From the NCBI GenBank assembly GCA_023260835.1, contig JALQTR010000086.1, forward strand, positions 1-50,031: a stretch of DNA of 50,031 bases. Reading direction: 5' to 3'. Of the stretch, positions 21,495 through 49,850 are shown piece after piece. The stretch is from Paracoccaceae bacterium. GTDB lineage: Bacteria; Pseudomonadota; Alphaproteobacteria; Rhodobacterales; Rhodobacteraceae. Each line of letters starts with the position of its first letter. Within the stretch, counting starts at the first letter, position 1. The notes beneath the pieces were generated by a model that saw only the letters and a list, made by a program, of their open reading frames with translations, was not told the origin of the DNA and did no database searches. A program made the translations under genes and the position numbers.

Positions 21495-23930
21495 TTAACC
21501 GCGCATCAAACTATGGTTTGGGTCATAGGGGGATGATGCGATCACGCAGGCGTCGATCAATTCACCACACAGATCCAGCGCCATTTTGCCGCCCATAACC
21601 GCCAAATCCGCATTCACATAGGCATAGGCCAGGTTCATTCCGACCCGATGCCCCCACTCGCCAGATGTGACCGTTCCAACCACAGCGCCATCCAACATCA
21701 AGGATGCGCCACTGTGGGCTGGCGCATGGGTTGCGTTTATCTGTAATGTGACCAAACGTTTGATCGGGCTATTTTGATGGCGCGCCATCAGGGCCGATTT
21801 GCCAATAAATTCGCCCTTATCGAATTTAACAAACCGATCAAGGCCGGTTTCAAATGGGTCAAATTCGGTTTGAATATCCGCCTTCCAATGCAGGAACCCT
21901 TTCTCTAGCCGCATGGATTCAACGGCCCGCGCGCCAAACAGTTGCAGGCCATGGGCCTGGCCTGATTTGCGCAGTGCAAGGTAGGCCGCATAAAGGGATG
22001 CATTCGGGATATGGATTTCATAGGCCAATTCACCCGAAAAGCTGACAGCCATGACCGTTGCGGGCGCAAACCCGATGAAACATTCGCGGATGGACAGCCA
22101 AGGAAAGGCCTCTTTGGACCAATCGCCACGTGCGCAATCGGAAATGACATCGCGGGCTTTTGGGCCTGCCAGAACCAAAATGGTCATATCATTGGTCAGC
22201 GATCGCAGCTGCACATCCTCGCCTTGGGCAATATGCTGGGTCAACCAATCCATGTCGTGATATTCGCTGGCGGCTGCGGATCCATACCAAACCCGTGCAG
22301 GTCCGCGGTCTGATGCGGGCAGATTGGCCACGGTTGCTTCGGATTTGATCATTCCGTGATGATTAAGAAGATACCCCAATCCAACACGGCCATCGCGTTT
22401 TGGCACTGTACCGCAGATCATTCGATCCAGAAATCTGTGACGATCCGTGCCAGTGATTTCGATGCGGTTAAACCCGTTCACCTCGCACAGGCCGACATTG
22501 GTTTGCACATTGCGCACCTCATTCGCCACAACGCTGAACGCCTCATCAAAATGAAAACTATGAGTGGTTTTGAAGTCACACGAGGGTTTAATATAATCGA
22601 CCCGTTCCCATCCATTCACAACGGTAAATTCGGCCCCTTCAGCGGCCAGAACGGGGGTCAGGGGCGTGGTTTTGGCCGGCCGCCCCGCGGGCCGGTGCTC
22701 ATGTGGAAAATGAAACCGAAATTCATTTTGATAATCCTCGACTGCCTTCAGCGAGGTCAGTTCAACATTGGCATGTCCGGTAAAGCGGCGAGGATCAAGG
22801 CACCATGTGTCGTAACAGGCTTCGCCATGAACGATTTGTTGTGCAAGCAGCCAGCCATGCCCCCCGCCTTCGCCCAAACCGGCGCGCAATCCAATAATGC
22901 AAAAGGCGTTTCGTTTGCCGGGAATTGGGCCAACCAGTGGCGCGCCATCGATTGTATAGGTGATTGGCCCATTGACGATTGTCCGTATCCCAGTGTTTTC
23001 CAATGCGGGCATTCGTGCGAAGGCCCCCGCCAATACATCCATCATCCGATCAAGATCATCAGGGCAGAGGGCATTCACAAATTTGGGGTCAATCCCATCC
23101 ATGCCCCATGGTTTGCAGTCCTGTTCATAAAACCCAACCAGCAGCCCGCCTTTTTCTTGGCGGCAATAATAATCACTGATCGGACAGCGCAGCAGTGGCA
23201 TCCGATGACCAGCATCTGCAATTTCTGGGATGTCCTCGGTCAGGAAATATTGATGTTCCATCGATGCAACGGGATGATGGACGCCCATCATTTTCCCCAC
23301 CTCATTCACGCGATAGCCACAGGCATTCACAACAATATCGCAATCAATGTCGCCCTGTTCGGTGTGGACGGTCCATGTATCATCTTTGTGCTGCGTCAGG
23401 GCAATCACAGGGGTGTTGCGATAAACCTCGGCCCCAGCTTTGCGCGCATGAAAGGCCAATGCCTGACACAGCTGCGCCGGATCAATATCGCCATCCAGTG
23501 GATCCCACAGACCACCCAGCAGGTTGTCCGTTGAAATCAATGGGTGCCGCCGGGCGCATTCTGCGGCGTCGATCACATCGAAATCGACCCCCATGCCGCG
23601 TGCCATTGATGCAAAATGACGATACCCCTGCATTTGCTGGTCTGTGTTGGCCAGACGGATGCCGCCGTCAGCATGATGATAATTAATCGGATATTCTGGG
23701 TCTTCGGACAGGGTTTTGTACAGATTAATCGAATGTGATTTTAACCCGACCATTGTTTGGTTCATGCCAAAATTCGTAACCTGCGCGGCGGAATGCCATG
23801 TTGTGCCGCTGGTCAGTTCGTTGCGCTCGACCAAGACAACATCGCTCCAGCCTTCTTGGGTCAGGTGATACAGCGTAGAGCATCCAGCGATCCCTCCGCC
23901 GATGACAACAACTTTGGTGCGGGATTTCAT
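21495..23930 (-). CDS. Dimethylglycine/sarcosine dehydrogenase-type protein (FAD DAO domain fused to GcvT folate-binding domain)
   Basis: VVVIGGGIAGCSTLYHLTQEGWSDVVLVERNELTSGTTWHSAAQV (FAD site with TWHS); C-terminal aminomethyltransferase-like domain ...RLEKGFLHWKADIQTEFDPFETGLDRFVKFDKGEFIGK. Confidence 0.92.
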   Translation of the reverse strand: MKSRTKVVVIGGGIAGCSTLYHLTQEGWSDVVLVERNELTSGTTWHSAAQVTNFGMNQTMVGLKSHSINLYKTLSEDPEYPINYHHADGGIRLANTDQQMQGYRHFASMARGMGVDFDVIDAAECARRHPLISTDNLLGGLWDPLDGDIDPAQLCQALAFHARKAGAEVYRNTPVIALTQHKDDTWTVHTEQGDIDCDIVVNACGYRVNEVGKMMGVHHPVASMEHQYFLTEDIPEIADAGHRMPLLRCPISDYYCRQEKGGLLVGFYEQDCKPWGMDGIDPKFVNALCPDDLDRMMDVLAGAFARMPALENTGIRTIVNGPITYTIDGAPLVGPIPGKRNAFCIIGLRAGLGEGGGHGWLLAQQIVHGEACYDTWCLDPRRFTGHANVELTSLKAVEDYQNEFRFHFPHEHRPAGRPAKTTPLTPVLAAEGAEFTVVNGWERVDYIKPSCDFKTTHSFHFDEAFSVVANEVRNVQTNVGLCEVNGFNRIEITGTDRHRFLDRMICGTVPKRDGRVGLGYLLNHHGMIKSEATVANLPASDRGPARVWYGSAAASEYHDMDWLTQHIAQGEDVQLRSLTNDMTILVLAGPKARDVISDCARGDWSKEAFPWLSIRECFIGFAPATVMAVSFSGELAYEIHIPNASLYAAYLALRKSGQAHGLQLFGARAVESMRLEKGFLHWKADIQTEFDPFETGLDRFVKFDKGEFIGKSALMARHQNSPIKRLVTLQINATHAPAHSGASLMLDGAVVGTVTSGEWGHRVGMNLAYAYVNADLAVMGGKMALDLCGELIDACVIASSPYDPNHSLMRG

Positions 23931-24056
23931 GGCGGCCTCCTTCATGCGATGTGCTGCATTCAGATTTGCACCCGGCGGTGGCCGCGGCAAATTAATCTCG
24001 ATAGTTTTGAAAAAACCGAAATTAAATTATCGAAAATCTGAAATAAAGCCGGCACA

Positions 24057-27047: not shown

Positions 27048-27167
27048 GATACCCCCGTTTAGGAAACTATTCGAAATGATTTGGCCAAAGACAAGGGAAA
27101 TATTCTGACTGGGCCGCTTCAACGGTACGTGGCCAGCGGCTGCCAGATACCCATGGGCGCATAAATC

Positions 27168-27962
27168 TTATGACGACTGGAAATTCAGGGTTTTTCTGTC
27201 TTGAAGATAGGGCAGGCGGGCCTGTGCCTGTGCGACGGCGCGCGTTGTGATGCGCGCAGATATAATTTCTGGGGCGCTGCCCGCGCGGGATAGGATTTGG
27301 CCGTTGGGGCCTGCAATGCAGCTTTGGCCCAAATAGGTCAACCCACGTTCACACCCGGCACTGTTGGCATAGGCCAAGAAGACACCGTTTTCAAAGGCGC
27401 GGGTGGGGATCATGGTTTGTGCGACCCAATCCCAATTTGCCCCCAATGCGGTCGGCACAAGGATCAACTCAGCGCCCATCGCCGCCAAATGCCGGGCCGT
27501 TTCGGGAAATTCGGCATCATAGCAGATCAATGTGCCGATCCTTATGCCGGCAAAGGTGAACAGGTTACAGCCTGCCCCTGGGGTGAAATAATCCCGTTCA
27601 AACCCAGGCGGAATGGCCAGTTTGCGATGCCCGCCCAAACGCGTTCCATCGGGGCCGAAACATTGCGCGGCGTTAAAGATCGCACCCCCTGCGGCTTCGC
27701 TGTAGCCATAGTGGACGGCCACACCATAGGTCATGGCAAGATGCCGAATTTTTTGGGCTGTTTCCCCATCCTGCGGTTCCGCGCGCGTGATAACATCGGC
27801 GCCAATGTGATAACCGCAGGCAAATAGTTCGGGCAGCAGCAACAGATCCACGCCCTGTGCAGCGATGTCGGGCAATTGATCCGACAACCACGACAGCCGC
27901 GCCGCGACACCGTCCAATTCCGATGGGGCCTGTGCAACGGCAAGATGCAGGTCATGGGGCAT
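27168..27962 (-). CDS. Carbon-nitrogen hydrolase (nitrilase superfamily)
   Basis: Glu (LLLPELFACGY), Lys (HRKLAIP) and Cys (TLICYDAEFPETAR) catalytic triad present. Confidence 0.92.
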   Translation of the reverse strand: MPHDLHLAVAQAPSELDGVAARLSWLSDQLPDIAAQGVDLLLLPELFACGYHIGADVITRAEPQDGETAQKIRHLAMTYGVAVHYGYSEAAGGAIFNAAQCFGPDGTRLGGHRKLAIPPGFERDYFTPGAGCNLFTFAGIRIGTLICYDAEFPETARHLAAMGAELILVPTALGANWDWVAQTMIPTRAFENGVFLAYANSAGCERGLTYLGQSCIAGPNGQILSRAGSAPEIISARITTRAVAQAQARLPYLQDRKTLNFQSS

Positions 27963-27964
27963 TG

Positions 27965-29122
27965 TTATTGCTCGGTCACCAATAATTCGCGTTTGTAATT
28001 TGTGATGTAGTCAAAGCCCGTTTTGGTTACGACGATTGAATCGCCAATCCGTCCGGCGGTTACGCCATCGATAGAAATGCCGCCATCAACGGCAAAGGTC
28101 ATCCCCGGTTGCAGTATGGTTTTATCGCCGGTTTTCAGCTCGGGCGCCTCAAGATAGGCCACGCCAATCGATCGTCCGGTGCGATACCCGGTTTGATACC
28201 CGCGGGCGGCATAGACGTCATTGGCGGCGGCGGCGACCTCTTCTGCGCGGATGCCGGGGCGAATGGCGGCAATGGCAGCTTGCTGCGCATCAATTGCAGC
28301 CTGCTGAACGCGGGCGGCATCATCCGTAACGGCGCCAATGTGGAACATCCGATCAAACCCCAATTTATATTGTTTGAACTGCGCCATGTTGCAAAAGCAA
28401 AAATAAACCGGATCGGTACGGCGATATTGCCGGACGGATGCGCGGCGATGCACCATGGATGTGTCTTTGCCGCTTTGCAGGATCTGCAGGTTGTGGATCA
28501 TGGGCGATACAAACCGATCCCAGCCTTTATCGGTCAAAAAGCTGGCGGCTTTGCGCGATCCGGCTTCGATTACGGCAAGGGCGCTTTCGTATTCATGCGC
28601 ACCCTCGCGCAGGCTGTGATGCGCGGCGGCCATCATGGCCCCGGCGATTTCACCGGCCTGTTTCATCACGTCGATTTCAAAGTCGGACTTGATCATCCGC
28701 ATTTCGCCCAAAACTGGCGCAATGTCGTTGATTGTGGCCGATGGGTAGCTGTCATCCAGAAAGTTGCGAACAATCGCGGGGATCGAGGATCGTTCGATCC
28801 ACAGTGTATCGGCGCGATCCCCCAAAGCGCCCTGCAAGGCGGCGCCCCAAGTGCGCGCGCCCATATCCTCCCACACGCGGATATCTTCGACCCATGTCAT
28901 TTCTGCAACCATTTCGGATTCCATCAGGGGTGTGATAACGATGGGCGCATCGTCGGCATCCACCACCAGCATGGTTGGGCGGCCAAATTCGATCCCAAGA
29001 TAGCCCCAAAAGCCCGCCAGATACGCGATTGAGCTTTCATCCGTAAATAACGCTTTTTGAATGCCGCGGTCTTTCATCCGGGCCTGTAAGTCCAATGTAC
29101 GTTTTTTTGCTTCGCTCAGCAT
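27965..29122 (-). CDS. M24-fold (Xaa-Pro peptidase/creatinase) protein lacking recognisable metal-ligand motifs
   Basis: MLSEAKKRTLDLQARMKDRGIQKALFTDESSIAYLAGFWGY N-domain; pita-bread C-domain with altered ligand motifs (TGRSIG, TFAVDGG, GRIGDSIVV). Confidence 0.85.
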   Translation of the reverse strand: MLSEAKKRTLDLQARMKDRGIQKALFTDESSIAYLAGFWGYLGIEFGRPTMLVVDADDAPIVITPLMESEMVAEMTWVEDIRVWEDMGARTWGAALQGALGDRADTLWIERSSIPAIVRNFLDDSYPSATINDIAPVLGEMRMIKSDFEIDVMKQAGEIAGAMMAAAHHSLREGAHEYESALAVIEAGSRKAASFLTDKGWDRFVSPMIHNLQILQSGKDTSMVHRRASVRQYRRTDPVYFCFCNMAQFKQYKLGFDRMFHIGAVTDDAARVQQAAIDAQQAAIAAIRPGIRAEEVAAAANDVYAARGYQTGYRTGRSIGVAYLEAPELKTGDKTILQPGMTFAVDGGISIDGVTAGRIGDSIVVTKTGFDYITNYKRELLVTEQ

Positions 29123-29933: not shown

Positions 29934-31487
29934 TTAACTTTCAGGCGGTGCGCCGCCTTCGGCTGTACGTTTGTCGATAAAGGTTTGCAGTTCATCCATG
30001 CGATCTGGGGACAGCATCATCTGCGCATTTTGCGCCAATATGCCTTCCCAGACGCGTGTTGCGCGTTGATTGGCATCCTGTGCGCCGCGTTCAGTCCATG
30101 TGCCATAGTTGGCGTAATCATGCACGATGGGGGGATAGAATTCGGTTTTATAGCGATCCATTGTTTGCGGCGCGGCAAAGAAATGGCCCGAGGGCGCAAC
30201 CTGTGACAATGCCGTTATAAACCCGATATCAGCCACCCCAGCAGTGGCGCCAGCACAGAGTTCGGCCACCATGTTCAGCACTTCGACATCGGTGATGATC
30301 TTTTCATAACTAACGGACAGGCCGCCCTCTAACCAACCGGCGGAATGGATAATCACACTGGCCCCGGCCAGCAGGCACCCCCAAAGCCCCATTTGGTTTT
30401 CATTTGCGGCCTGAACGTCATTTACATTCGACGCAGATCCTGCTGCGGATCGCCATGGCAGGCCCAGCAGCCGTGCCATTTGCCCCGCTGCAAGGGATGC
30501 CTGAAAATGCGATGGGGTGCCAAGGGCCGGCGCCCCCGATTTCATATCCACATTGGACGTGAACGTGCCATAACACACCGGCGCACCAGGGTTTGCCAAC
30601 TGGGTCAGCGTAATCGCGGCAAGGCATTCCGCATGCGACAGGGTGATTGCCCCTGCAACGGTAATCGGGGCCATGGCCCCCATCAGGGTAAAGGGTGTGA
30701 CGATGGACAGCTGACCGTGGCGCGCAAAATCAATCAACCCTTGTGCCATTGGATTATCCAAACAGCGTGGGCTGTTGGTGTTTATGATCGTATAGGCATG
30801 CGCGGCGGATCGAAATGCATCATCGTCCAGTCCCCGCGCGATTTTCAGCATTTCAAAATTATCCAGCGTCTGCGGGGTGCCGCGGGCAAACAGGAACGGG
30901 AATTTATCGGTCTGTGTCATCTGTGTTTTGACCGTAAAATAATGGCGCAGATGTGTTGGGATGTTTTGTGGCTCGACCGAGGGGCTCATCATTTGGAAGA
31001 CATCAAAATGATGGGCAAGGCGGGTGAATTCTTCAAAATCCGTGGCTGACCCGGGGCGTCGCCCGCGTTTTAAATCTGTTGCATTTGGCGCCCCTGCACC
31101 GGGTTGAAAGGCCAACGCCCCCAACTCAAGCACAATATCCCGATCTGGCGCAGCTGCATGACAATGGATGGATTTGGGGGCTGTGTGAAGGGCCGATTGG
31201 ACAATACCACGCCCGATAAAGACCATATCCCCCTCAATCCGTGCGCCCGCCGCGGCATAAATGCGCCGCGCTTCGGGCAGCAGGACTTTCATCCCCAGCT
31301 CTTCCAGCATCCGCAGGGCGGTGTCATGAATATTGGCGGCCTCATCTTCTGAAAATACGGACATCAGCGGAAAAGGGTTGCGCAATTGCCGATAATTCGT
31401 TTCGCGCACAGCTGCGGCGCCGGCCTGTGATTGCGTGCGTCGTTTGCGATTGTTGTGCGGCTTTGCGCCCTCAATTTGCGTGGCCAT
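29934..31487 (-). CDS. Trimethylamine methyltransferase (MttB) family protein, no in-frame amber codon
   Basis: NYRQLRNPFPLMSVFSEDEAANIHDTALRMLEELGMKVLLPEARRIYAAAGARI; SGAPALGTPSHFQASLAAGQMARLLGLPWRSAAGSASNVNDVQA; 517 aa. Confidence 0.9.
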   Translation of the reverse strand: MATQIEGAKPHNNRKRRTQSQAGAAAVRETNYRQLRNPFPLMSVFSEDEAANIHDTALRMLEELGMKVLLPEARRIYAAAGARIEGDMVFIGRGIVQSALHTAPKSIHCHAAAPDRDIVLELGALAFQPGAGAPNATDLKRGRRPGSATDFEEFTRLAHHFDVFQMMSPSVEPQNIPTHLRHYFTVKTQMTQTDKFPFLFARGTPQTLDNFEMLKIARGLDDDAFRSAAHAYTIINTNSPRCLDNPMAQGLIDFARHGQLSIVTPFTLMGAMAPITVAGAITLSHAECLAAITLTQLANPGAPVCYGTFTSNVDMKSGAPALGTPSHFQASLAAGQMARLLGLPWRSAAGSASNVNDVQAANENQMGLWGCLLAGASVIIHSAGWLEGGLSVSYEKIITDVEVLNMVAELCAGATAGVADIGFITALSQVAPSGHFFAAPQTMDRYKTEFYPPIVHDYANYGTWTERGAQDANQRATRVWEGILAQNAQMMLSPDRMDELQTFIDKRTAEGGAPPES

Positions 31488-31587
31488 CAGATTTATATCC
31501 CTATATTTACATTATGCATATGATTTGTTTGATGATGTGAGCAAATTAAAAACGCCAACCTACATAAAAAGCCTGCGCTCTAATTCC

Positions 31588-32151
31588 ATGACGATAGATA
31601 CCCCCATGACAGATATCACAGACGCCTCATCACAATTTCAGGACAGCCTGCCCATGACATCAGATGCGATACTTGCGCATCTTGATGACTGGGGGATCGA
31701 ATACACACGGTTTGACCACGCCCCCCTGCGCACCGTCGAGGATGCGAAGAAAATTCAACATCAATTGCTGTCCACCGACCAAGGCGGCGGGCATATTAAA
31801 AATCTTTATCTGCGCGATCATAAGAAGAAAAATATTTTGGTTGTTGCGGAACAAGATTGCGTGATTGACTTAAAAGGGCTTCATAAAACCCTTGGCACTG
31901 GCCGTCTGTCGTTTGGGTCCAAGGATCGATTGATGGACGCCCTTGGTGTGCGCCCCGGGGCTGTCACACCATTGGCGATGATCAATGGCGTCAAGTCTGG
32001 TGTAGAGTTGTTCATTGATAAAACATTGCAAGATCGCGATGTCATCTATGTGCACCCGTTGGTGAATGACAGGACATTGGGATTGTCAATCGACGGTTTG
32101 AATGCGTTTTTTCCAATCATCAATGTCACGCCAAATTGGGTGGAATTGTAA
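31588..32151 (+). CDS. Prolyl-tRNA editing domain protein (ProX/PrdX/YbaK-like)
   Basis: GIEYTRFDHAPLRTVEDAKKI...GGGHIKNLYLRDHKKKNILVV...TLGTGRLSFGSKDRLMDALGVRPGAVTPLAMINGVKSGVELFID. Start uncertain (31588 or 31606). Confidence 0.9.
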   Translation: MTIDTPMTDITDASSQFQDSLPMTSDAILAHLDDWGIEYTRFDHAPLRTVEDAKKIQHQLLSTDQGGGHIKNLYLRDHKKKNILVVAEQDCVIDLKGLHKTLGTGRLSFGSKDRLMDALGVRPGAVTPLAMINGVKSGVELFIDKTLQDRDVIYVHPLVNDRTLGLSIDGLNAFFPIINVTPNWVEL

Positions 32152-32296
32152 TCTGTGGGTCGTTCCTTTCAGTTCGACAGGTATTGATGGGCGCAGACAT
32201 TCTGGTTAGCCTGCGTTTGAAAGCCTGATGGATTGCACAAACCGTACAAACGAAACCATCAGATTGAAGCTGTAATCGGCGAAGCGGGGCTATGGA

Positions 32297-34216
32297 ATGC
32301 TGTTTTCACCTATAACAATTCGGGGTCGCGTGATCCGGAACCGTATTTTGTCAACGGGTCACGACACGACACTGCCGACCGATGGTACCGTGAATGAGGC
32401 GCTGATCGCGTATCATCGGGCCAGAGCCAAGGGTGGTGTTGGGCTGATCGTTACCCAAGTGGCAGGTGTGCATGAAACGGCACGCTACACCTCGCATCTT
32501 TTGATGGCGACCGACGATTCATGCATTGCGGGCTATCGCGCATTGGCGGATGCTGTGCATGCTGAAGGCGCCGCAATCATCAGCCAGCTGTTCCATCCTG
32601 GCCGTGAAATTATGGAAAGCGCCGATGGGCTTTTGGCCGTTGCATGGGCCCCTTCGGTTGTTCCGAATGAACGGTTTCATGTCATGCCCCGCGCGCTTGA
32701 TGCGGCCATGATCGCCCAGATCGTCGCGGGATATGCCGCGGCTGCTCGTCGGATGGCCGAGGCGGGGTTTGACGGTGTTGAATATGTGGCCTCGCACGGG
32801 TATTTGCCCGCGCAGTTTTTGAACCCGCGGGTAAATTTGCGCACAGATGACTGGGGCCAAGACCGCACAAAATTTCTGCGTGATTGCATCACAGCGATGC
32901 GCGCAGCGGTTCCTGACGATTTTATCATCGGGATGCGCATTTCGGCGGATGAACGCGAAGAGGAGGGCCTGCAAGCCGCAGAAATGGAGGCGGCCGCCCG
33001 CGATTTATCGTCATTGTTGGACTATCTAAACGTCACAGTCGGCACCTCGGCCACGATGGGCGGTGCGGTGCATATTGTGCCCCCCATGGCCTATGCCGCA
33101 GGATACATGGCCGAAGCGGCGGGCCGGATCAAACGGGCTGTGGATTGCCCAGTGTTTGTGGCGGGCCGGATCAATCAGCCGCAGGTGGCTGAAGAAATCC
33201 TTGCGGCGGGACACGCGGATATGTGCGGTATGACGCGGGCATTGATTGCCGATCCTGATATGCCCGCAAAAGCGCAGACCGGACGGTTTGATGATATTCG
33301 TGCCTGTATCGGATGCAATCAGGCCTGCATTGGACATTTTCATCGTGGTTTGCCGATCTCTTGTATTCAGCACCCCGAAACGGGGCGCGAGCTGCGGTAC
33401 GGCACCTATTGTCCTGCTGAGCGGCGCAAAAAGATCATGGTTGTTGGCGGCGGACCCGCCGGTATGAAGGCCGCGGCCGTTGCGGCAGCGCGGGGTCATG
33501 ATGTAACCCTTTATGATGCCAATGCTCAGTTGGGTGGACAGGCGCGGCTCGCACAACTTTTGCCCAGGCGGGCGGAATTTGGTGGGATCATCACCAATCT
33601 TGCCCGCGAGATGGAGCTGGCACAGGTGCGCGTTCTGCGCGGCATTCGGGTCACCCGCGATTTGGTCCAGCAAGAGGCGCCAGATGCCGTGGTTGTCGCC
33701 ACCGGTGCCGTGCCTTATGTGCCTGATCTGCCCCAGGACGGGTCGGTTCAGATGCTGACCGCGTGGGATGTATTGCAGGGCGCAAAAACAGGGCCGCGTG
33801 TTTTGGTCGCTGATTGGCGTGCTGATTGGGTTGGGCCCGGCATTGCCGAGGCGCTGGTGCAACAAGGCTGCAATGTGCAGCTTGCGTTGACCGCACCGAT
33901 GTTGGCGGGTCAATTGCCACTTTATGTGCGTGATGATATTGCCGCGCGATTGCATGGGCTGGGTGTCACCATTACCCCCTATGCACGGCTCTACGGCGTG
34001 TCAGAGGGCACGGTTTATCTGCAACACACCACATCCGGCGCCGCCATCGAGGCAGAGGCCGATACGGTTGTTCTGTGTCTGGGGCACAGGCCCGTGGATG
34101 AGCTGAGCGCGCAAATTGCAGACCTGACCGAAGTGATCACAATCGGTGACGCCATGGCGCCACGAACCGCAGAGGAGGCTGTTTATGAGGGGCTGAAAGC
34201 CGCTGTCGCGATGTAA
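32297..34216 (+). CDS. NADH:flavin oxidoreductase/Old Yellow Enzyme-like with 4Fe-4S and NAD(P)-binding domains (2,4-dienoyl-CoA reductase/TMADH/StcD-like)
   Basis: MLFSPITIRGRVIRNRILSTGHDTTL; CIGCNQACIGHFHRGLPISCIQ 4Fe-4S motif; KKIMVVGGGPAGMKAAAVAAARGHDVTLYD. Confidence 0.92.
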   Translation: MLFSPITIRGRVIRNRILSTGHDTTLPTDGTVNEALIAYHRARAKGGVGLIVTQVAGVHETARYTSHLLMATDDSCIAGYRALADAVHAEGAAIISQLFHPGREIMESADGLLAVAWAPSVVPNERFHVMPRALDAAMIAQIVAGYAAAARRMAEAGFDGVEYVASHGYLPAQFLNPRVNLRTDDWGQDRTKFLRDCITAMRAAVPDDFIIGMRISADEREEEGLQAAEMEAAARDLSSLLDYLNVTVGTSATMGGAVHIVPPMAYAAGYMAEAAGRIKRAVDCPVFVAGRINQPQVAEEILAAGHADMCGMTRALIADPDMPAKAQTGRFDDIRACIGCNQACIGHFHRGLPISCIQHPETGRELRYGTYCPAERRKKIMVVGGGPAGMKAAAVAAARGHDVTLYDANAQLGGQARLAQLLPRRAEFGGIITNLAREMELAQVRVLRGIRVTRDLVQQEAPDAVVVATGAVPYVPDLPQDGSVQMLTAWDVLQGAKTGPRVLVADWRADWVGPGIAEALVQQGCNVQLALTAPMLAGQLPLYVRDDIAARLHGLGVTITPYARLYGVSEGTVYLQHTTSGAAIEAEADTVVLCLGHRPVDELSAQIADLTEVITIGDAMAPRTAEEAVYEGLKAAVAM

Positions 34217-34252
34217 GTTGGGCCATATCCATGCCCAAAGGCCGCTATGCGT

Positions 34253-35125
34253 CTACTGCCCAAGCCAATTAAACAATTGCTGCGCGGGCTTTGAGGCTTG
34301 GGAATGCAGTTTGACATAGAAATCCTGCGGCGAGCTGATGTCGATAGGCAACAATGGAACCAAACGGCCCGAAGACACCAATTCATGCGTCAGACCATCC
34401 CATCCCAGCACAACGCCCATGTCATCCTGTGCGGCCTGAAGGGCAATCAAATAATTGTTCACGCGATGATCAACGCGGATGGGGCCAGTGTACCCTAGTG
34501 ACGCGAACCAATCCTTCCAGCTTGTCCAGCCTGTATTACCTGCCTCCATATGAATAAGGGGCAGTTTTGCAAGTTCACCAATGGATTGGATCGCATGCGC
34601 GGCGGCAAACCTTGGACTGCATAGCGCGGCGATGCGGTCGTGAAATAAAACGCGGCAATCCCCCTTATCTTTGGACATATCAGCATAATGAATGCTGAGG
34701 TCGCAATCATTGTGATCTTGGTCTGTATCATTGACAATTTGTGCAACAGAGACGTGGCCATGGGTGCGCCAAAATTCTGCCAAACGCGGCATAAGCCAAA
34801 GTGAACTGACCGCAGTTGTGACGCGAATTGTGACGGCCGCTTTTGATGTTCTTGCACGCAGTTGATCCAATGCATCGTTGATGCCTTCAAAGCTGCGCTG
34901 TAACGCGACCAATAGATATGCACCCAGTTCGGTCAATTCGACGCCGCGGTGATAGCGATGAAATAAAGTAATCCGAAGCTCTTGCTCAAGTGATTTAACT
35001 TGATGGCTGATTGCGGCGGGCGTCACATTCAATTCAACGGCCGCTTTTTTAAAACTCGCGTGCCGCGCCGCAGTTTCGAAGGCGATTAATGCGCTCATTG
35101 CGGGAAGTTCATAGGGTCTGTTCAA
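34253..35125 (-). CDS. LysR family transcriptional regulator (GcvA-like)
   Basis: ELPAMSALIAFETAARHASFKKAAVELNVTPAAISHQVKSLEQELRITLFHRYHRGVELTELG. Confidence 0.92.
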   Translation of the reverse strand: MNRPYELPAMSALIAFETAARHASFKKAAVELNVTPAAISHQVKSLEQELRITLFHRYHRGVELTELGAYLLVALQRSFEGINDALDQLRARTSKAAVTIRVTTAVSSLWLMPRLAEFWRTHGHVSVAQIVNDTDQDHNDCDLSIHYADMSKDKGDCRVLFHDRIAALCSPRFAAAHAIQSIGELAKLPLIHMEAGNTGWTSWKDWFASLGYTGPIRVDHRVNNYLIALQAAQDDMGVVLGWDGLTHELVSSGRLVPLLPIDISSPQDFYVKLHSQASKPAQQLFNWLGQ

Positions 35126-35259
35126 ATGATTTGCTCCGATGTGGTATGCGGTATTTTGGCTTAGAATATCTAATTCAAGATGAAATTTTTTACAATTGCC
35201 AAACGCATCAGGCTGGGATCATTGGGTGGCAAAGCCATTCATGTATAGGGGAATGAACA

Positions 35260-36831
35260 ATGAAGGATGATGATGCAAAACGGTCACGTTCACGTGGTGG
35301 ACGGCGCGGGGCGGATAAAGGGCGATCCGCCGCGCCGGGGCAGAATCCCTTTTTGGAAACACCGTTCATCACTCGCGGCATCCCCCCCTATGAACTGCTG
35401 GGCGAGGACGCGTTGCAGCGTATCGAAGACACCGCCGAACGGATCATGGCCGAAATTGGCATTGAATTTCGCGAAGACCCAGAAGTGGTTGAATTGTTTC
35501 GTAAAGCCGGGGCAATGGTTACGCCTGTATCGGCCGATGCATGGAACCTGAAATTTGAACGCGGTATGATCCGCGCCATTTTGAAAACAGCCCCAGCACG
35601 GTTTACGCAACACGCGCGCAACCCAGCACGATCCATTGAAATTGGCGGTGATGCGACGGTTTTCGCCCCTTCCTATGGATCGCCCTTTGTGATGGATTTG
35701 GATCAGGGGCGCCGCTATGGCACCATAAATGATTTTGAAAATTTCGTGAAATTGGCACAGTCATCGCCATGGCTGCATCATTCTGGTGGGACGATTTGTG
35801 AACCGACGGATATTGCGGTTAACAAGCGGCACCTGGATATGGTATATGCGCATATGCGGTATTCTGATCGGCCGTTTTTGGGATCGATCACTGCACCAGA
35901 ACGCGCAGCAGATTCCATTGAAATGTGCCGTATCCTGTTTGGTGCGGATTATGTTGATCAACACTGCGTTATTATGGGCAATTTCAACACGACGTCACCA
36001 TTGGTTATGGATGGCGTCACGACACGCGGTATTCGTGAATATGCACAAGCGGGCCAGGGCTCTATTCACCTGCCATTTTTGTTGGGGGGGGCTGTTTCGC
36101 CCCTAACGATTGCGGGATCGGTTGCACAATGTTTGGCAGAAACCATGGTCTCTGCGGCAATCACTCAGCTGGTGCGGCCAGGATCCCCTGCAATTTTGGG
36201 GTCGTTTATTTCGTCGATGTCATTGCGCAGTGGGTCGCCCACATTTGGGACGCCTGAACCTGCATTGGGGTCGCTTGTCATGGGGCAATTGGCGCGCCGT
36301 TTGAATATGCCTCTGCGCTGTGCTGGGAATTTCTCAACATCCAAGTTGCTAGATGCGCAAGCGATGCAGCAATCTGTCATGTCGATGATGTCGGCCGTAC
36401 AGTGCGGTGCGAATTTCATTCTACATTCTGCTGGATTTTTGGATGGCCTTTTGTCCATGTCTTATGAAAAATTTGTTCTGGATGCTGATTTTTGTGGGGC
36501 CTTGCACGCCTATATGAAGGGGGTTGAGGTCTCAGATGACACGCTGGGGTTTGATGCCCTGGCAGAGCAGGGACCCGGTGCACATTTATTTGGAACGGCC
36601 CATACGTTGAAACATTACCAAACAGCCTATTGGGACAGTGCGCTTGACGATAATCAACCCTGGGAAACATGGAACGAGCAGGGCGCATCGGATGCGGCAA
36701 GCCGCGCTAACCAGCGGTGGAAGGATCAACTGGCCGTCTATGAAGCGCCACCGATGGATGATGCGGTGGATGACGCATTAAAGGCGTTCATAGCACAGCG
36801 CAAAGACGCCATGCCGGATGCTTGGTATTAA
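35260..36831 (+). CDS. Trimethylamine methyltransferase (MttB) family protein, second copy, no in-frame amber codon
   Basis: PPYELLGEDALQRIEDTAERIMAEIGIEFREDPEVVELFRKAGAMV...RSGSPTFGTPEPALGSLVMGQLARRLNMPLRCAGNFSTSKLLDAQAM; 523 aa. Confidence 0.92.
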   Translation: MKDDDAKRSRSRGGRRGADKGRSAAPGQNPFLETPFITRGIPPYELLGEDALQRIEDTAERIMAEIGIEFREDPEVVELFRKAGAMVTPVSADAWNLKFERGMIRAILKTAPARFTQHARNPARSIEIGGDATVFAPSYGSPFVMDLDQGRRYGTINDFENFVKLAQSSPWLHHSGGTICEPTDIAVNKRHLDMVYAHMRYSDRPFLGSITAPERAADSIEMCRILFGADYVDQHCVIMGNFNTTSPLVMDGVTTRGIREYAQAGQGSIHLPFLLGGAVSPLTIAGSVAQCLAETMVSAAITQLVRPGSPAILGSFISSMSLRSGSPTFGTPEPALGSLVMGQLARRLNMPLRCAGNFSTSKLLDAQAMQQSVMSMMSAVQCGANFILHSAGFLDGLLSMSYEKFVLDADFCGALHAYMKGVEVSDDTLGFDALAEQGPGAHLFGTAHTLKHYQTAYWDSALDDNQPWETWNEQGASDAASRANQRWKDQLAVYEAPPMDDAVDDALKAFIAQRKDAMPDAWY

Positions 36832-43643: not shown

Positions 43644-45119
43644 TTACGCCCAATCGCGGCAAATGTATTTGATATCTGTGAAGGCCTCCATGCCTTGGCG
43701 GGCACCTTCACGGCCAAGGCCGGATTGTTTGGTGCCGCCAAAGGGGATGGGGGCGCCGGTGACTTTGGTTCGGTTCACCGCCACCATGCCAAATTGCAGC
43801 GCGCGGGTCAGGCGGTAAATCCGTCGCGGATCCTGTGAATGCAGATAGGCAATCAGCCCATATTCGGTGGCATTGGCTTTGTGTAACACCTCGGCCTCAT
43901 TATCAAAGGGTGCGATGGGCGCGATTGGCCCAAATGTTTCTTCGTGCATAATGGCAGCATCATCTGGCACATCGGTCAGCACTGTGGGGGCAAAGAACAG
44001 CGGCCCCAAATCCAGACCCGACCCGCCACAGGCCAGCTGCGCCCCTTTGGCCAGGGCATCGGCCACATGGGTCTTTTGTTTTTCAATCATAGCGTCATGC
44101 ATCAACGGGCCGATGTCTGGATCGTCCATTCCCGGCCCAACACGCAGGGCGCGCACCGCCGCAGTGAAGCGGGCGCAGAATTCAGGATAGATGCTGCGCT
44201 GCACATAGATCCGGTTTGCGCCCAGACAATCCTGCCCTGATGTGGCGAATTTGGCTTTCATCGTTTCGGCAACGGCATGGTCCAAATCGGCATCGTCAAA
44301 GACGATAACCGGGGCGTGGCCGCCCAATTCCATCACAAGGCGTTTGACGGTGTCGGCGGATTGCCGATACAGCAATTTGCCCACCTCAGTCGATCCGGTA
44401 AAGGATAGCGCGCGCACCCGTGTATCACCGCACCAGGCGCCCACGATGGTGGCGGCATCGCCGGTGACCACGTTGAACACCCCATCGGGGATGCCGGCCC
44501 GCCGCGCCAGTTCTGCCAAGGCCAATGCGCTGAAGGGCGTGTGTGCGGATGGATGCGCCACCACGGTGCAGCCCGCCGCCAGCGCCGCCGCGGCCTTGCG
44601 TGTCAGCATTGCGGATGGGAAATTCCATGGGGTGATCAGGGCGGCCACGCCCACGGGTTCGCGCCACAATTCAACCTCGGCATCGGGCAAGTGGCTGGTG
44701 ACCCCTTCGATATTTGGGCGCTTGGCCTCTTCTGCGTAAAATTCGGCAAAGGCGGCGCCGTATTCGATCTCACCACGGGCTTCGGACAGGGGTTTGCCCT
44801 GTTCCAGCACCATGATTTTGGCCAGATCCTCTTTATGTTGCAGCTGCAATTCATACCAGCGGCGCAGGGCGGCGGCGCGGGTTTGCGGCAAAAGGGTGGA
44901 CCAACTGGCAAAAGCGGTTTCTGCGGCATCCACCGCGGCGCTGGCCTGATCAGCACCCAAGGCGGCCATTTGGCCGATCACCTGCCCGCTGGCAGGGTCC
45001 GTGACGGGGAAATCCGCGCCATCCGGCCCGGCGCACCATTGTCCACCAATAAAGGATTGCGCGCGGATCAGCGTCTGGTCATTAATGTCGCTGCGGGTGT
45101 GAAGCGTGCTGTGGGCCAT
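43644..45119 (-). CDS. NAD-dependent aldehyde dehydrogenase, succinate-semialdehyde dehydrogenase-like
   Basis: VMELGGHAPVIVFDDADLDHAV, FATSGQDCLGANRIYV, TPWNFPSAM, PFGGTKQSGLGREGARQGMEAFTDIKYIC. Confidence 0.92.
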   Translation of the reverse strand: MAHSTLHTRSDINDQTLIRAQSFIGGQWCAGPDGADFPVTDPASGQVIGQMAALGADQASAAVDAAETAFASWSTLLPQTRAAALRRWYELQLQHKEDLAKIMVLEQGKPLSEARGEIEYGAAFAEFYAEEAKRPNIEGVTSHLPDAEVELWREPVGVAALITPWNFPSAMLTRKAAAALAAGCTVVAHPSAHTPFSALALAELARRAGIPDGVFNVVTGDAATIVGAWCGDTRVRALSFTGSTEVGKLLYRQSADTVKRLVMELGGHAPVIVFDDADLDHAVAETMKAKFATSGQDCLGANRIYVQRSIYPEFCARFTAAVRALRVGPGMDDPDIGPLMHDAMIEKQKTHVADALAKGAQLACGGSGLDLGPLFFAPTVLTDVPDDAAIMHEETFGPIAPIAPFDNEAEVLHKANATEYGLIAYLHSQDPRRIYRLTRALQFGMVAVNRTKVTGAPIPFGGTKQSGLGREGARQGMEAFTDIKYICRDWA

Positions 45120-45260
45120 TTGGGAACCTCCTGTCCTGATGTCAGGCGGATCATCGGAGGTTTGATCAAACGGCGGGGATTTATTTTTACGTTCGGGGCA
45201 GAGGATTCCTCTTTTCTTCAGCGCCCCAACGGGATGGATCCTCTGCGGGGGCGCTTGGGG

Positions 45261-46592
45261 TTAATCGGCCCGGGCCTTCCATTCTTTCCAACGCAGCACC
45301 GCATTGGCCCCTATGTCGCGAATGGGCTGGGGCGGTAGCGGTTTGGGGGCGGCTTCGGCGGTGAAGTGGCGGGTGATGTCGGACGTCACCCCGCAGGCCA
45401 ATTCCGCCGCCCCCATGCCCGTCAATGTGCCGCGCGCTGTTCCCAGACCGTTTTGCACGCAACCGGCAAAAACCCCAGGCGCCAATTCGCGCATGACGGC
45501 GACATTGTTCAGGCTCAGGCACAGATGCCCCGCCCAGGCATATTGCATTTTCAGCCCAGCGAGTTTTGGAAAGCGGCTGTCGAATTTGCGTTGCATGACC
45601 CGCGCAGCGCGGGCCAGATCGGCGGGCCGCGCCGCCATGTTTGATCGCAGTGCGGCGCAGGTGCGGGTGATGATGCGATTGCCGCCCTGAGCGCTGTTTA
45701 TCCGCCGCAACGTGGTGCCCATCGGATCGGATGGTGTGATCCCCCAACGATCTGCCCCATCGGTTTGCGATGGGTCCAATTCCGGGGTCATCACGGCAAA
45801 TAGAAACAGATGCATCAGCGCCCCGCGGGCAAATCCAAAGCTTTCTAAATGACCGTTAACCGTCAGGATAATGCGGCCTGTGTCCACATGGCCCTTTGGG
45901 GTGGTGATCCGCCAGCCGCCAGTTTGTTGGGCAAAGCCCAAGGCGGGGCTGTGTTCGAAAATACGCACCCCTTGGCGTATCAGCCCATCAGCCATGCCGC
46001 GAATGAACCCCGCGGGCTGCAACATAACCGTGCCGGGGGTATATAGCCCCGACAGATAATGCGCACTGCCCGTCAGATCGCGCATGGCCTGCGCGTCCAG
46101 ATGTTCACACCCTTCGCCCAAATCGGCCAAATGGCGGGCATAGCTGTGGTTATGCGCATCCGCGGCGGCGCTGGCCGCGCCGTTGATTTTACCCGCGTGG
46201 TCAAAGAAATTGGGATCAATGCCGTAATCATCCACCGCGCCAGCCGCAAACCCCTGTGCTTGGCGGTTCAGTGCAATGATCTGTCGATCATCGCCGGCCC
46301 CTGCGTAATCTTCGCTGGTCAGCTCATGCGGCAGATCAATCATAAATCCCGAATTGCGCCCTGCCGCACCTTGGGCAATTTGCCCCGCTTCCAGCACCAC
46401 GACAGAGGCAGACGGGTCCAGCAGCCGAACCCGCCGTGCGGCGGCAAGGCCGGCAAAGCCGCCCCCGATGATCGTGACATCCGCGCGGATCCCCTGATCC
46501 AGCACGGGGCCTGCTGCGCGCGGGGGCAGGATTTCATCCCATGCGGCCGGCCCCAGCTGGCTGGGGGTGCGTTTGGCGGTAAAGCGGGTCAA
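45261..46592 (-). CDS. DAO-type FAD-dependent oxidoreductase (gamma-glutamylputrescine oxidase-like)
   Basis: DVTIIGGGFAGLAAARRVRLLDPSASVVVLEAGQIAQGAAGRNSGFM. Confidence 0.9.
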   Translation of the reverse strand: MTRFTAKRTPSQLGPAAWDEILPPRAAGPVLDQGIRADVTIIGGGFAGLAAARRVRLLDPSASVVVLEAGQIAQGAAGRNSGFMIDLPHELTSEDYAGAGDDRQIIALNRQAQGFAAGAVDDYGIDPNFFDHAGKINGAASAAADAHNHSYARHLADLGEGCEHLDAQAMRDLTGSAHYLSGLYTPGTVMLQPAGFIRGMADGLIRQGVRIFEHSPALGFAQQTGGWRITTPKGHVDTGRIILTVNGHLESFGFARGALMHLFLFAVMTPELDPSQTDGADRWGITPSDPMGTTLRRINSAQGGNRIITRTCAALRSNMAARPADLARAARVMQRKFDSRFPKLAGLKMQYAWAGHLCLSLNNVAVMRELAPGVFAGCVQNGLGTARGTLTGMGAAELACGVTSDITRHFTAEAAPKPLPPQPIRDIGANAVLRWKEWKARAD

Positions 46593-48085
46593 TCCACGGC
46601 CTCATCCGCGTCATCGGACAGATCCACCCAGATGGTTTTCAGCTGTGTATATTGGTCATGCGCATGGATGCCATTGTCACGCCCGCCAAAGCCCGATTGT
46701 TTATGCCCGCCAAAGGGGGTGGAGATATCACCCTCGCCAAAGCTGTTGACCGTAACGGTGCCTGCGCGGACCGTGCGCGCAGCGCGCAGCGCGCGTTTGA
46801 TATTGGCGCAGAAGATCGAGGCGCACAGCCCATAGTCGCTGTCATTGGCCAAGGCGACGGCCTCATCCAATGAGGAAACGGTTAGGACGGATAACAGGGG
46901 GCCGAAGACTTCGTCCCGGGCCAGCGGGCTTTGTGCGTCGGCCAAATCCACCACCGTGGCTTCGACAAACCCACCCGAGGCTTTGCCGCCCATCAGCACC
47001 GTTTCAGCCTGATCCAAATATCCACAAACTTTGGCAAAATGCGCAGGTGACACCAGCGCGCCCAGACGGGTTTCGGGATCCAATGGATCGCCCGTATTCC
47101 AGGCGCGGGCGTGGTGCTGGATACGTGCCAGCAAATCATCCTTTACATCGCGAAGCACAATCAGACGCGATGTGGCCGAACAGTTTTCGCCCATATTCCA
47201 AAACGCACCTTGCACGATATGTTGGGCCACGCGGTCCAGGTTTTCGGCATCCTCCATCACGATGGCGGCGTTTTTGCCGCCCATTTCCAAAACCACTTCC
47301 TTGGCGTTGGATTGTGCGGCGTATTCCAAGAACCGTTTGCCGGTGACAGTTGATCCGGTGAAGGACAGCGCATCAACATCCATATGCAAACCCAAAGGCG
47401 CGCCTACTTCGGCACCGCCACCGGGCAGCACGTTGAAGACACCGCGCGGCAGGCCTGCCTCGATCGCCAGTTCCGCAATGCGCAGCGTTGTCAGCGTGGT
47501 TTCTTGCGCGGGTTTCACGATGACCGAACAACCGGCCGCCAAAGCCGGGGCGATTTTCCACGCCAGCATCAGCAAAGGGAAGTTCCACGGCAGAACCAGC
47601 CCCACAACCCCCACAGGTTCGCGCAGGATCATCGCAATGTGATCGTCCGATGCCGGCGCCGTTTGGTCATAGATTTTGTCGATCAATTCGGCATGCCAGA
47701 TCAGCGCATGGATGGTTTCGGGCAAATCCACCGTTTCGCAATCGAAAATCGGCTTGCCGCTGTCGATGCTTTCCATCACCGCCAATTCACGGGCGTTGCG
47801 TTTGATCAGCTTGGCCAGGCGGATCAGCACCTCTTTGCGGGCGCTGGGGTGTTGGCGCGACCAGCGACCGTCGTCGAAGGCCTCGCGCGCTTTTTGCACT
47901 GCAAAATCCACATCCTGCGCATCGCAGGCGGCAATATCGGTCAGCTTTGCGCCCGTGGCGGGGTTGATGGTTTCAAATGTTGCGCCCCGGGTGGCGGGGC
48001 GATAGCCACCGTCAATGAAGGCGGCATTTGGCAGATCCAGCCCTGCGGCGATGGATTTATATTCGTCTTTGGTCAAAACTTGCAT
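46589..48085 (-). CDS. Aldehyde dehydrogenase family protein
   Basis: VLEMGGKNAAIVMEDAENLDRVA, FWNMGENCSATSRLIV, LPWNFPLLM; ATGA overlap with the FAD oxidoreductase. Confidence 0.94.
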   Translation of the reverse strand: MQVLTKDEYKSIAAGLDLPNAAFIDGGYRPATRGATFETINPATGAKLTDIAACDAQDVDFAVQKAREAFDDGRWSRQHPSARKEVLIRLAKLIKRNARELAVMESIDSGKPIFDCETVDLPETIHALIWHAELIDKIYDQTAPASDDHIAMILREPVGVVGLVLPWNFPLLMLAWKIAPALAAGCSVIVKPAQETTLTTLRIAELAIEAGLPRGVFNVLPGGGAEVGAPLGLHMDVDALSFTGSTVTGKRFLEYAAQSNAKEVVLEMGGKNAAIVMEDAENLDRVAQHIVQGAFWNMGENCSATSRLIVLRDVKDDLLARIQHHARAWNTGDPLDPETRLGALVSPAHFAKVCGYLDQAETVLMGGKASGGFVEATVVDLADAQSPLARDEVFGPLLSVLTVSSLDEAVALANDSDYGLCASIFCANIKRALRAARTVRAGTVTVNSFGEGDISTPFGGHKQSGFGGRDNGIHAHDQYTQLKTIWVDLSDDADEAVD

Positions 48086-48098
48086 GTCCCTTACCCCT

Positions 48099-49010
48099 TC
48101 AGCCGGTAATATCTGCGATGGTGGATTTCAAAACGCGCACCACCTGTTCCAGCGCGCGTTTGTCGTCTTTGTTCAGCCCCTTCAGCGGCGCGCGCATCAC
48201 GCCGGCATCAATGCCGTTCATGGTGACGCCATGTTTGATTGTTTGGATGAACTTTCCGCCCTGTTCCAAAACCCGCATCAGCGGCATCATGGCCGACATA
48301 ATCCGCCGGCCCTTGGCAAAATCGCCTTCGATCACGCAGGCATTATACAGCGCGACATGTTCCGCCGGCAGGAAATTCGACCCGCCGCAGACCCAAAATG
48401 GCGCGCCCCAGGCGAAGAATTCCAGCGCCTGATCGTCCATCCCACAGCCCAGTTGGATATGCGGGTAATCGCGCGCCAAAAGATGCACCCGGTTAATATC
48501 GCCCGAGCTTTCTTTGATCCCGCAGAAATTGCGGCTGCGGCCAACGCGGTCCAAAAATTCCTCGCCCATCATGGTGCCGGTGCGGTGCGGGTAATTATAC
48601 AGCATAATCGGCAAATCCGCCGCCTTATCAATCGCCAATGCGTTCAGCGCATTTTCGCGATCGGTTGGCACTGAATAGGGCGGGCTGGCCAGCAAAATGG
48701 CATCGGCTCCAATCTCGCGCGCGGCCCGCGCCAATGCGATGGAATCGTCCGTCAGCATCGCGCCGGTGCCCACAACCATTGGCACGCGGCCCGCGATCTG
48801 CGCATGGGTGAAGCGGGCCAATTCGATCCGTTCCGCCACAGTTTGGGCATAGTTTTCGCCCGTGGACCCGCCCGTGATGATCCCATGCACTCCCGCTGCG
48901 ATCAAAAATTCGATCACTTCGGCCAAAGCGTCCAGATTGGGGGATCCATCCGGAAAATACGGGGTGACGACCGGGGTATAGATCCCTTCGAATTTGAAAA
49001 TCGGTGTCAT
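48099..49010 (-). CDS. Dihydrodipicolinate synthase (DapA) family lyase/aldolase
   Basis: GIYTPVVTPYFPDGSPNLDAL, GITTG-like GIITGGSTGENY, YNYPHRTG, FCGIKESSGD (Schiff-base Lys). Confidence 0.92.
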   Translation of the reverse strand: MTPIFKFEGIYTPVVTPYFPDGSPNLDALAEVIEFLIAAGVHGIITGGSTGENYAQTVAERIELARFTHAQIAGRVPMVVGTGAMLTDDSIALARAAREIGADAILLASPPYSVPTDRENALNALAIDKAADLPIMLYNYPHRTGTMMGEEFLDRVGRSRNFCGIKESSGDINRVHLLARDYPHIQLGCGMDDQALEFFAWGAPFWVCGGSNFLPAEHVALYNACVIEGDFAKGRRIMSAMMPLMRVLEQGGKFIQTIKHGVTMNGIDAGVMRAPLKGLNKDDKRALEQVVRVLKSTIADITG

Positions 49011-49021
49011 ATCAGTCCTTT

Positions 49022-49720
49022 TCAGTTGTGGCTTGCGCCCAGCGGTAAATCCAATGCGCCGGGCATGACAAAACGTTCGATATGGCCGCGCGACAGCTGC
49101 CAATGGGCGTGGGCCAGATCTTCGGCTGTATCGGCATCGCGGGCGATGATGGCATTGATCATGGCGTGGTGGTGTTGGCTGGCGGTTTCCGTGTCGTCAT
49201 CCTGCCTGCCTGTTTGCGCATTGTAGAAGGTCATGGCGATCCGCGCATGATCGATCAGCAGCCGTTTGAAGGATGGCAACAGATAGGTGTTCTGCGCCAT
49301 CTCGCCCGTGATGTCATGAAAGCGGTTGTTTGCCAGCGCGCGCTGCGCGGTGTTGTCGCTGTGCAGGGCGGCTTCGAATTGTGTTTGGGCCGCCTTCAGG
49401 GCGGTGATTTGGGATTGGGTCGCATTTTGGGCCGCCAGCCGCAGAACAGCTGCATAGATCATGGGGGCGGCCAAAAAGAAATCGCGCAACGTGGTCATGG
49501 ACATATCCGACACACGCGCGCCGCGCCCGGCGCGCAGGTCCAGATATCCTTCGCCCGCAAGGGCGCGAAACACCTCGCGCAGGGGGGTGCGGGACAGGCC
49601 AAATTCCTCGCTCAGGCGGACCTCGTCCAAATCCGCGCCGGGCGGCAGCGCCAGCGTCAGCACCCCCTGGCGCAGGTGATCGGCCAGTTGATCTTTGGGG
49701 GATGGGGTTGGTTTGTTCAT
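49022..49720 (-). CDS. GntR family transcriptional regulator (FCD-like)
   Basis: DQLADHLRQGVLTLALPPGADLDEVRLSEEFGLSRTPLREVFRALAGEGYLDLRAGRGARVSDMS; start MNKPTPSP chosen. Confidence 0.93.
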   Translation of the reverse strand: MNKPTPSPKDQLADHLRQGVLTLALPPGADLDEVRLSEEFGLSRTPLREVFRALAGEGYLDLRAGRGARVSDMSMTTLRDFFLAAPMIYAAVLRLAAQNATQSQITALKAAQTQFEAALHSDNTAQRALANNRFHDITGEMAQNTYLLPSFKRLLIDHARIAMTFYNAQTGRQDDDTETASQHHHAMINAIIARDADTAEDLAHAHWQLSRGHIERFVMPGALDLPLGASHN

Positions 49721-49779
49721 GGTTGATCCTTTGCTTGCAAATATGTCTAGCCGGATTCGTATTTTTTGTAAATACAAAA

Positions 49780-49787
49780 TGTATACA
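49780..49787. promoter_or_regulatory. Candidate GntR operator core
   Basis: Palindrome TGTATACA in the AT-rich leader 60 bp upstream of the GntR start; same octamer as at the 29.2 kb GntR promoter. Confidence 0.45.
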
Positions 49788-49823
49788 ATATATCGCGGCG
49801 ACCTTTCCAAGCCCTTTAAACGC

Positions 49824-49850
49824 AAAAACCCCCGCCAGCTGGCGGGGGTT
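49824..49850 (-). terminator. Rho-independent terminator of katG
   Basis: Perfect palindrome AACCCCCGCCAGCTGGCGGGGGTT followed by T run on the minus strand, just downstream of the katG stop. Confidence 0.85.

Follow-up and report, generated by a model that had tools for sequence, protein, structure and literature searches.

What two MttB-family methyltransferases do on a contig assigned to an aerobic bacterial group, and whether the flavoprotein gene between them takes part in the same reaction, was examined for contig JALQTR010000086.1 of a Paracoccaceae bacterium (entire contig of 50,031 bases, referred to as the window; assembly 2.1 Mb, 85% complete). MttB1 (29934..31487, minus strand, 517 aa) and MttB2 (35260..36831, plus strand, 523 aa) flank an Old Yellow Enzyme/trimethylamine dehydrogenase (OYE/TMADH)-type flavoprotein (32297..34216, plus strand, 639 aa) and a LysR regulator (34253..35125, minus strand, 290 aa). 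A first-pass annotation had described these four genes, all of which are intact at these coordinates, as a single functional locus in which the MttB proteins take the first methyl group off a quaternary amine such as proline betaine and the flavoprotein removes the second, using an unlinked or unusual methyl acceptor.

On balance, MttB1 and MttB2 are probably two substrate-specific first-step subunits of an aerobic split Mtg system. This assignment draws on what is read from sequence: the family of the proteins, their conserved residues, the operon links seen in relatives and the presence of partner genes. With the methyl route modelled on Ruegeria, and with activity, substrates and regulation predicted, each MttB would accommodate a quaternary ammonium compound of the betaine type in a TIM barrel like that of MtgB, and move one methyl group to the cob(I)alamin of an MtgC corrinoid protein that both share and whose gene lies elsewhere. 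MtgD would then hand the methyl group to tetrahydrofolate (THF) for oxidation, and a RamA-type activase would re-reduce the cobalamin together with a DUF1638 protein. MttB2, probably controlled by LysR, would most likely act on proline betaine or hydroxyproline betaine, after which an HpbA-type flavoprotein encoded on another contig would strip the remaining N-methyl group, and a trans-3-hydroxyproline dehydratase/ProC-like pair could feed 3-hydroxyproline to proline. MttB1 would most likely act on a trimethylammonio acid, whose remaining methyl groups would be taken by folate-dependent dehydrogenases.

Family, fold and binding site of the two MttB proteins

Both proteins matched the Pfam family MTTB (PF06253) over their full length (MttB1, 634 bits, E 1.5e-190; MttB2, 720.5 bits, E 8.3e-217; cut-off 25 bits). 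Their description as non-pyrrolysine MttBs of 517 and 523 aa held, with no in-frame TAG in either gene, and an identity as pyrrolysine MttB was rejected on the basis of TIGR02369 (252 and 235 bits; cut-off 525). In alignments of 30 sequences per subfamily, the pyrrolysine position was occupied by phenylalanine in MttB2 (30/30) and by a one-residue deletion in MttB1 (30/30). PF06253 was matched nine times in the genome, across eight contigs; contig ends truncate some of these matches. The closest solved structures for both window proteins were those of S. meliloti 4YYC and D. hafniense MtgB (2QNE/9YCE), and AlphaFold models built from shallow alignments displayed the same fold, with TM-scores of 0.85-0.88 to 4YYC/MtgB (target-normalised).

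Site residues were taken from a docking study on MtgB, which proposed Y94, N199, R309, H345 and F353 for the binding of glycine betaine (PMC6855144). Of the conserved active-site residues, whose loss the first-pass annotation regarded as counting against its proposal, N199, R309 and H345 are invariant in all 30 sequences of each subfamily. MttB2 additionally retains Y94 (30/30) and keeps four of the five proposed residues. MttB1 keeps three and carries, in 30/30 sequences, A94, N318 and the deletion at the pyrrolysine position; lysine 318 is otherwise found in almost all relatives, pyrrolysine MttB included. F353 is replaced in both subfamilies, and the exchanges F353 to L and L314 to F are fixed in MttB2. 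Overall, 49 fixed or nearly fixed differences separate the two subfamilies. Conservation and fixed differences together indicate that both groups are strongly constrained. A carboxylate is probably still bound by each of them, and their substrates probably differ. Sequence thus supports the identification of both proteins as MttB homologs of the non-pyrrolysine kind whose binding site resembles that of MtgB. They share 31-40% identity with D. hafniense MtgB, whose host is anaerobic and whose partners are linked. A phylogeny that included characterised MtgB, as the first-pass annotation had proposed, was calculated as a quick tree (SH-aLRT only; long branches, deep branching order unsure) and resolved a separate clade with full support for each of MttB1 and MttB2, distinct from 4YYC and with neither of them grouping with DhMtgB.

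Other members of the family were seen alongside these. A third MttB subfamily, marked by T at MtgB position 94 and by A at E359, was recorded in stretches L184 (16338-17888), L106 (5234-6790), L182 (2525-4174) and L247 (8975-10582), of which L106 is the copy of this genome; it adjoins HpbA/ProC-like genes or sits inside a GntR-DHDPS-ALDH-DAO set. A very divergent MttB-family protein of this genome (L110, 7655-9220; 24-28% identity to the references; longest branch of the tree) is devoid of the conserved site residues and possibly has another function.

Methyl acceptor and partner genes outside the window

In agreement with the first-pass annotation, which had seen neither a corrinoid-binding protein nor a gene for methyltransferase A (MtxA) in the window, genome-wide family searches gave no match on this contig. 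Profile searches of the genome with PF02607 and PF02310 returned only two mutase-like B12 domains; the B12-binding cap domain was present in 24/24 family relatives in the same search. The provisional conclusion that the genome has no corrinoid acceptor was overturned by a search with a relative's MtgC, which detected the 3' end of mtgC on contig C30 (last 42 residues, 86% identity), followed by a DUF1638-like gene as in relatives. At this site (stretch L221, ~1626-1643), the mtgC 3' end lies head-to-head with an N-terminally truncated methylmalonate-semialdehyde dehydrogenase gene on the opposite strand, within about 20 bases, and the rest of mtgC seems to have been lost at a false assembly join. 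The suggested genome search for a corrinoid protein and its methyltransferase thereby yielded, besides the mtgC fragment, an mtgD gene on another contig (NF005719, 407.5 bits; cut-off 259), located beside a gene for a 310 aa protein that is MetF-like by eye and matched no NCBIfam model. A RamA-type activase gene, whose frame is cut by the contig end, was found on another contig (PF14574, E 6e-84; AcsV/RamA-like by NCBIfam, below equivalog cut-offs).

In Ruegeria pomeroyi, MtgB acts with unlinked MtgC/MtgD in the demethylation of glycine betaine and in making methionine, and the same study notes genomes with as many as seven PF06253 paralogs (PMC12478193, 2025). That system (MtgB/MtgC/MtgD, with MtgE as a split methionine synthase) and the one proposed here have in common the PF06253 first-step subunits, the presence of several paralogs, the bacterial group, an unlinked corrinoid protein, a pterin-binding partner, a RamA-type activase and DUF1638. 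The published study tested glycine betaine, and the MttB1/MttB2 subfamilies, their fixed site differences and the operon links to HpbA or to dimethylglycine dehydrogenase (DMGDH)-like proteins are not described in its text. Since mtgC, mtgD, RamA-type and DUF1638 genes are present in the genome, no unusual acceptor is needed and this half of the earlier suggestion falls away. The other half, MttB proteins in an aerobe with an unlinked acceptor, is correct in kind by analogy with the Ruegeria precedent and matches the partner genes on other contigs, yet is already published. Its novelty has largely been overtaken by PMC12478193; as far as the open literature shows, the split into MttB1 and MttB2 subfamilies and the link between MttB2 and HpbA are new here.

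Operon partners and predicted substrates

Orthologs were surveyed in 249 genera of the family, using identity thresholds of about 61% for MttB2 and about 57% for MttB1. Subsequently, about 19 kb were read around each of 20 orthologs per MttB, with open reading frames (ORFs) in GC-rich loci called by codon scoring. The MttB2 subfamily was present in 45/249 genera and the MttB1 subfamily in 48/249. HpbA-clade genes occurred in 126/249 genera and in 45/45 of those with MttB2 (Fisher p 5e-16, to be taken as a guide only because genera are not independent; genus lists compiled by hand). As a null control, MttB1 was found together with HpbA-clade genes in 21/48 genera (p 0.34). A gene for a flavoprotein of ~681 aa of the TMADH/OYE type was located on the same strand within 400 bp of MttB2 in 15/20 stretches and anywhere in 18/20. 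This partner shows 65-88% full-length identity to the NCBI-named HpbA (N-methyl-L-proline N-demethylase), and MttB2 orthologs that are 72-80% identical sit in an operon with HpbA-clade genes.

The genome under study has its own HpbA-clade gene at the edge of a contig (C130:3-2030; 78% identity to the copy in L192, 69% to HpbA). At the edge of contig C31, genes for a trans-3-hydroxyproline dehydratase, a ProC-like protein and a second OYE protein are ordered as in the operon of relatives, and we infer that the two edges adjoin. A trans-3-hydroxyproline dehydratase gene also lies inside the MttB2 operon of L190. On the minus strand of the window (43644..49825), family matches identified a set of GntR, DHDPS family, PuuC-like ALDH, DAO (pipecolate-oxidase-like) and SSADH-like genes resembling hydroxyproline/pipecolate catabolism; a similar GntR-DHDPS-ALDH(-MttB-DAO) set adjoins the MttB2 orthologs in L184 and L193. 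Hydroxyproline use has been described in the company of the DAO, DHDPS and ALDH families (PMC4113996). The LysR gene is divergent from MttB2, from which it is separated by 134 bp, and a 62-63% identical LysR occupies the same position in L186, L187 and L194, so that it likely regulates MttB2.

As the HpbA partnership was seen in 45/45 genera, usually within one operon, proline or hydroxyproline betaine is the likeliest substrate of MttB2, which is accordingly best described as a predicted proline/hydroxyproline-betaine:corrinoid methyltransferase. No literature on such a link to proline betaine in aerobes was found in the open literature. MtpB of the anaerobe Eubacterium limosum, likened here by its described reaction, carries out on proline betaine the same reaction as that predicted for MttB2, in an anaerobic setting. 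In the hpb pathway of proline betaine use, the first step is taken by a Rieske oxygenase and HpbA follows. With an HpbA-clade protein as its constant partner, MttB2 would swap the O2-dependent oxygenase for corrinoid methyl transfer and save the methyl group as methyl-THF. In Rhodobacter sp. CZR27, an MttB2 ortholog and hpbA are a few genes apart; the interval holds a Rieske oxygenase/reductase pair as well as a betaine/proline ABC transporter. No Rieske enzyme was seen beside HpbA where MttB2 is lacking in the stretches read, and the replacement of the Rieske step is therefore argued from the CZR27 locus only, where both lie together.

MttB2 might alternatively be another glycine betaine demethylase of the MtgB type, in which case its link to HpbA would reflect a shared osmolyte-use regulon and not a shared substrate. 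This explanation is consistent with the retention of Y94, N199, R309 and H345 in 30/30 MttB2 sequences and with the induction of both SPO2108 and SPO2134 on glycine betaine in Ruegeria (PMC12478193). It appears quite unlikely, however. Most of the 249 genera possess a further, near-universal group of paralogs (about 50% identity) that would serve for glycine betaine already; MttB2 is in an operon with HpbA and not with dimethylglycine dehydrogenase; and F353 to L and L314 to F are fixed in MttB2.

For MttB1, a different set of partners was obtained. A gene for a DMGDH-type FAD/GcvT protein of ~815 aa was located on the same strand within 400 bp of its orthologs in 15/20 stretches, and sarcosine-oxidase-like subunits or a DAO protein were further partners in some genomes. 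A DMGDH-like gene of the window (21495..23990, minus strand, 831 aa; Pfam DAO, FAO_M, GCV_T and GCV_T_C) was considered as a displaced MttB1 partner and rejected, as it is only 34-37% identical to the MttB1-linked proteins and hence a distant paralog. If MttB1 leaves two N-methyl groups to two further oxidases, a trimethylammonio acid is suggested as its substrate; for MttB2, with HpbA as the single enzyme after it, the corresponding suggestion is a cyclic betaine with two N-methyl groups. From these partner counts, a trimethylated amino-acid-like amine is the likelier substrate predicted for MttB1. The earlier suggestion of proline betaine gains from the HpbA linkage for MttB2; MttB1 belongs to the other subfamily. 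Because paralog substrates vary widely in the MttB family and the neighbours of MttB1 are generic demethylating oxidases, one or both proteins might act on some other methylated amine (e.g. homarine, trigonelline, carnitine or trimethyllysine) in an incidental context. The MttB2-HpbA link is strong and selective, and we regard this possibility as unlikely.

Several observations weigh against a split Mtg system with the substrates proposed here. The link to HpbA is one-way, as 81 genera have HpbA and lack MttB2, and the name HpbA rests on NCBI annotation and homology. In this genome, both MttBs are found outside their ancestral operons, and other contigs carry the HpbA operon. The site residues stem from a published docking model of MtgB, and MtgC is represented only by a 42-codon fragment at an apparently mis-assembled join. 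It is a tentative proposal, with a chance somewhat below even, that aerobic Rhodobacteraceae use MttB2 and HpbA for (hydroxy)proline betaine in place of the Rieske oxygenase and without need of O2, passing the methyl group to folate/methionine via MtgC, and that MttB1, its site reshaped by A94, N318 and the deletion at the pyrrolysine position, provides a second specificity for a trimethylated amino acid.

Window flavoprotein, neighbouring genes and implications

The window flavoprotein (Oxidored_FMN, E 2.9e-60; Pyr_redox_2) comprises an FMN barrel, a 4Fe-4S cysteine motif and a Rossmann domain. The motif had been recognised correctly in the first-pass annotation, with a spacing (CxxCxxxC-x12-C) that has to be amended to C-x2-C-x3-C-x11-C. 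Domain order, cluster motif and the equivalents of H172, Y174 and D267 are shared with the trimethylamine dehydrogenase/FadH family (1DJN, 1PS9), whereas C30 is replaced by D and Y169 by V. In TMADH, C30 is the residue of the 6-S-cysteinyl FMN and forms a set with Y169, H172 and D267, of which the window protein keeps H172 and D267. An identity as HpbA/StcD was rejected, since the protein is 33.6% identical to CZR27 HpbA, compared with 65-88% within the HpbA clade, and the HpbA-type active-site stretch EAYGHLLEQFWSP is replaced by VASHGYLPAQFLNP. Its relatives of 60-83% identity have cupin proteins/regulators and ABC transporters as neighbours, and no close orthologs were found beside MttBs of the MttB1 and MttB2 subfamilies in the neighbourhoods read. 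The protein is a probable N-demethylase, as predicted from sequence, that is probably separate from either MttB pathway, and the claim that it removes the second methyl group was not borne out, the HpbA-clade gene being on another contig. In L059 and L060 (Roseovarius sp. TE539 and Sulfitobacter aestuariivivens), four OYE/TMADH-type genes lie in tandem, the last of which is a relative of the window flavoprotein.

These findings also bear on the idea that MttB1, MttB2 and the flavoprotein act on a single betaine in a joint two-step pathway with an unusual acceptor. Physical proximity in the window, the TMADH-like active-site residues of the flavoprotein and the MttB-like neighbours of a few distant OYE homologs (L054, L058, L070, L089) favour it. 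The five genes from MttB1 to MttB2 alternate in strand, however (-, +, +, -, +), and therefore fall into four or more transcription units instead of a single operon; the orthologs of the flavoprotein adjoin cupin regulators and ABC transporters in place of these MttBs; and the MttBs derive from ancestral operons that differ between them and co-occur in genera no more often than by chance (7 observed, 8.7 expected). With mtgC, mtgD and RamA genes in the genome as well, a joint pathway is very unlikely. The window as one conserved locus was likewise dismissed: its gene arrangement is not kept in relatives, where flavoprotein, MttB1 and MttB2 orthologs each have a conserved neighbourhood of their own, three in all.

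The fifth gene, missing from the first-pass annotation, encodes a YbaK/ProX-type aminoacyl-tRNA editing domain protein (ORF 31435..32151, plus strand; PF04073 (tRNA_edit), E 9.5e-24) and ends 145 bp upstream of the flavoprotein gene; its true start is probably inside the ORF. No homolog of it was found near the flavoprotein orthologs in the neighbourhoods read. A tie of this gene (31585-32151), placed directly before that of the flavoprotein, to proline-analogue mischarging would be an attractive idea. Further upstream, an amidase, a carbon-nitrogen hydrolase and an M24 creatinase/prolidase-family peptidase lie in a row on the minus strand (25638-29122), with a GntR gene adjacent; the nearest models for the peptidase are those of ectoine hydrolase, with a score under the cut-off. 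This is a putative amide degradation set. The named relatives of the window proteins are mainly Rhodobacteraceae-type Alphaproteobacteria, and two window genes, one FixG-like and one for a copper P-type ATPase, fit an aerobic or microaerobic life.

Proline-type betaines are widespread plant and algal osmolytes. The role of the up-to-seven MttB paralogs in marine aerobes was left open by the 2025 work (PMC12478193), and two of them are now separated by subfamily, site differences and operon partners. For MttB2, a concrete and cheaply testable substrate prediction is now available. If it is true, aerobes would demethylate proline-type betaines by a B12-dependent route without oxygen, tied to methionine synthesis and to the supply of vitamin B12.

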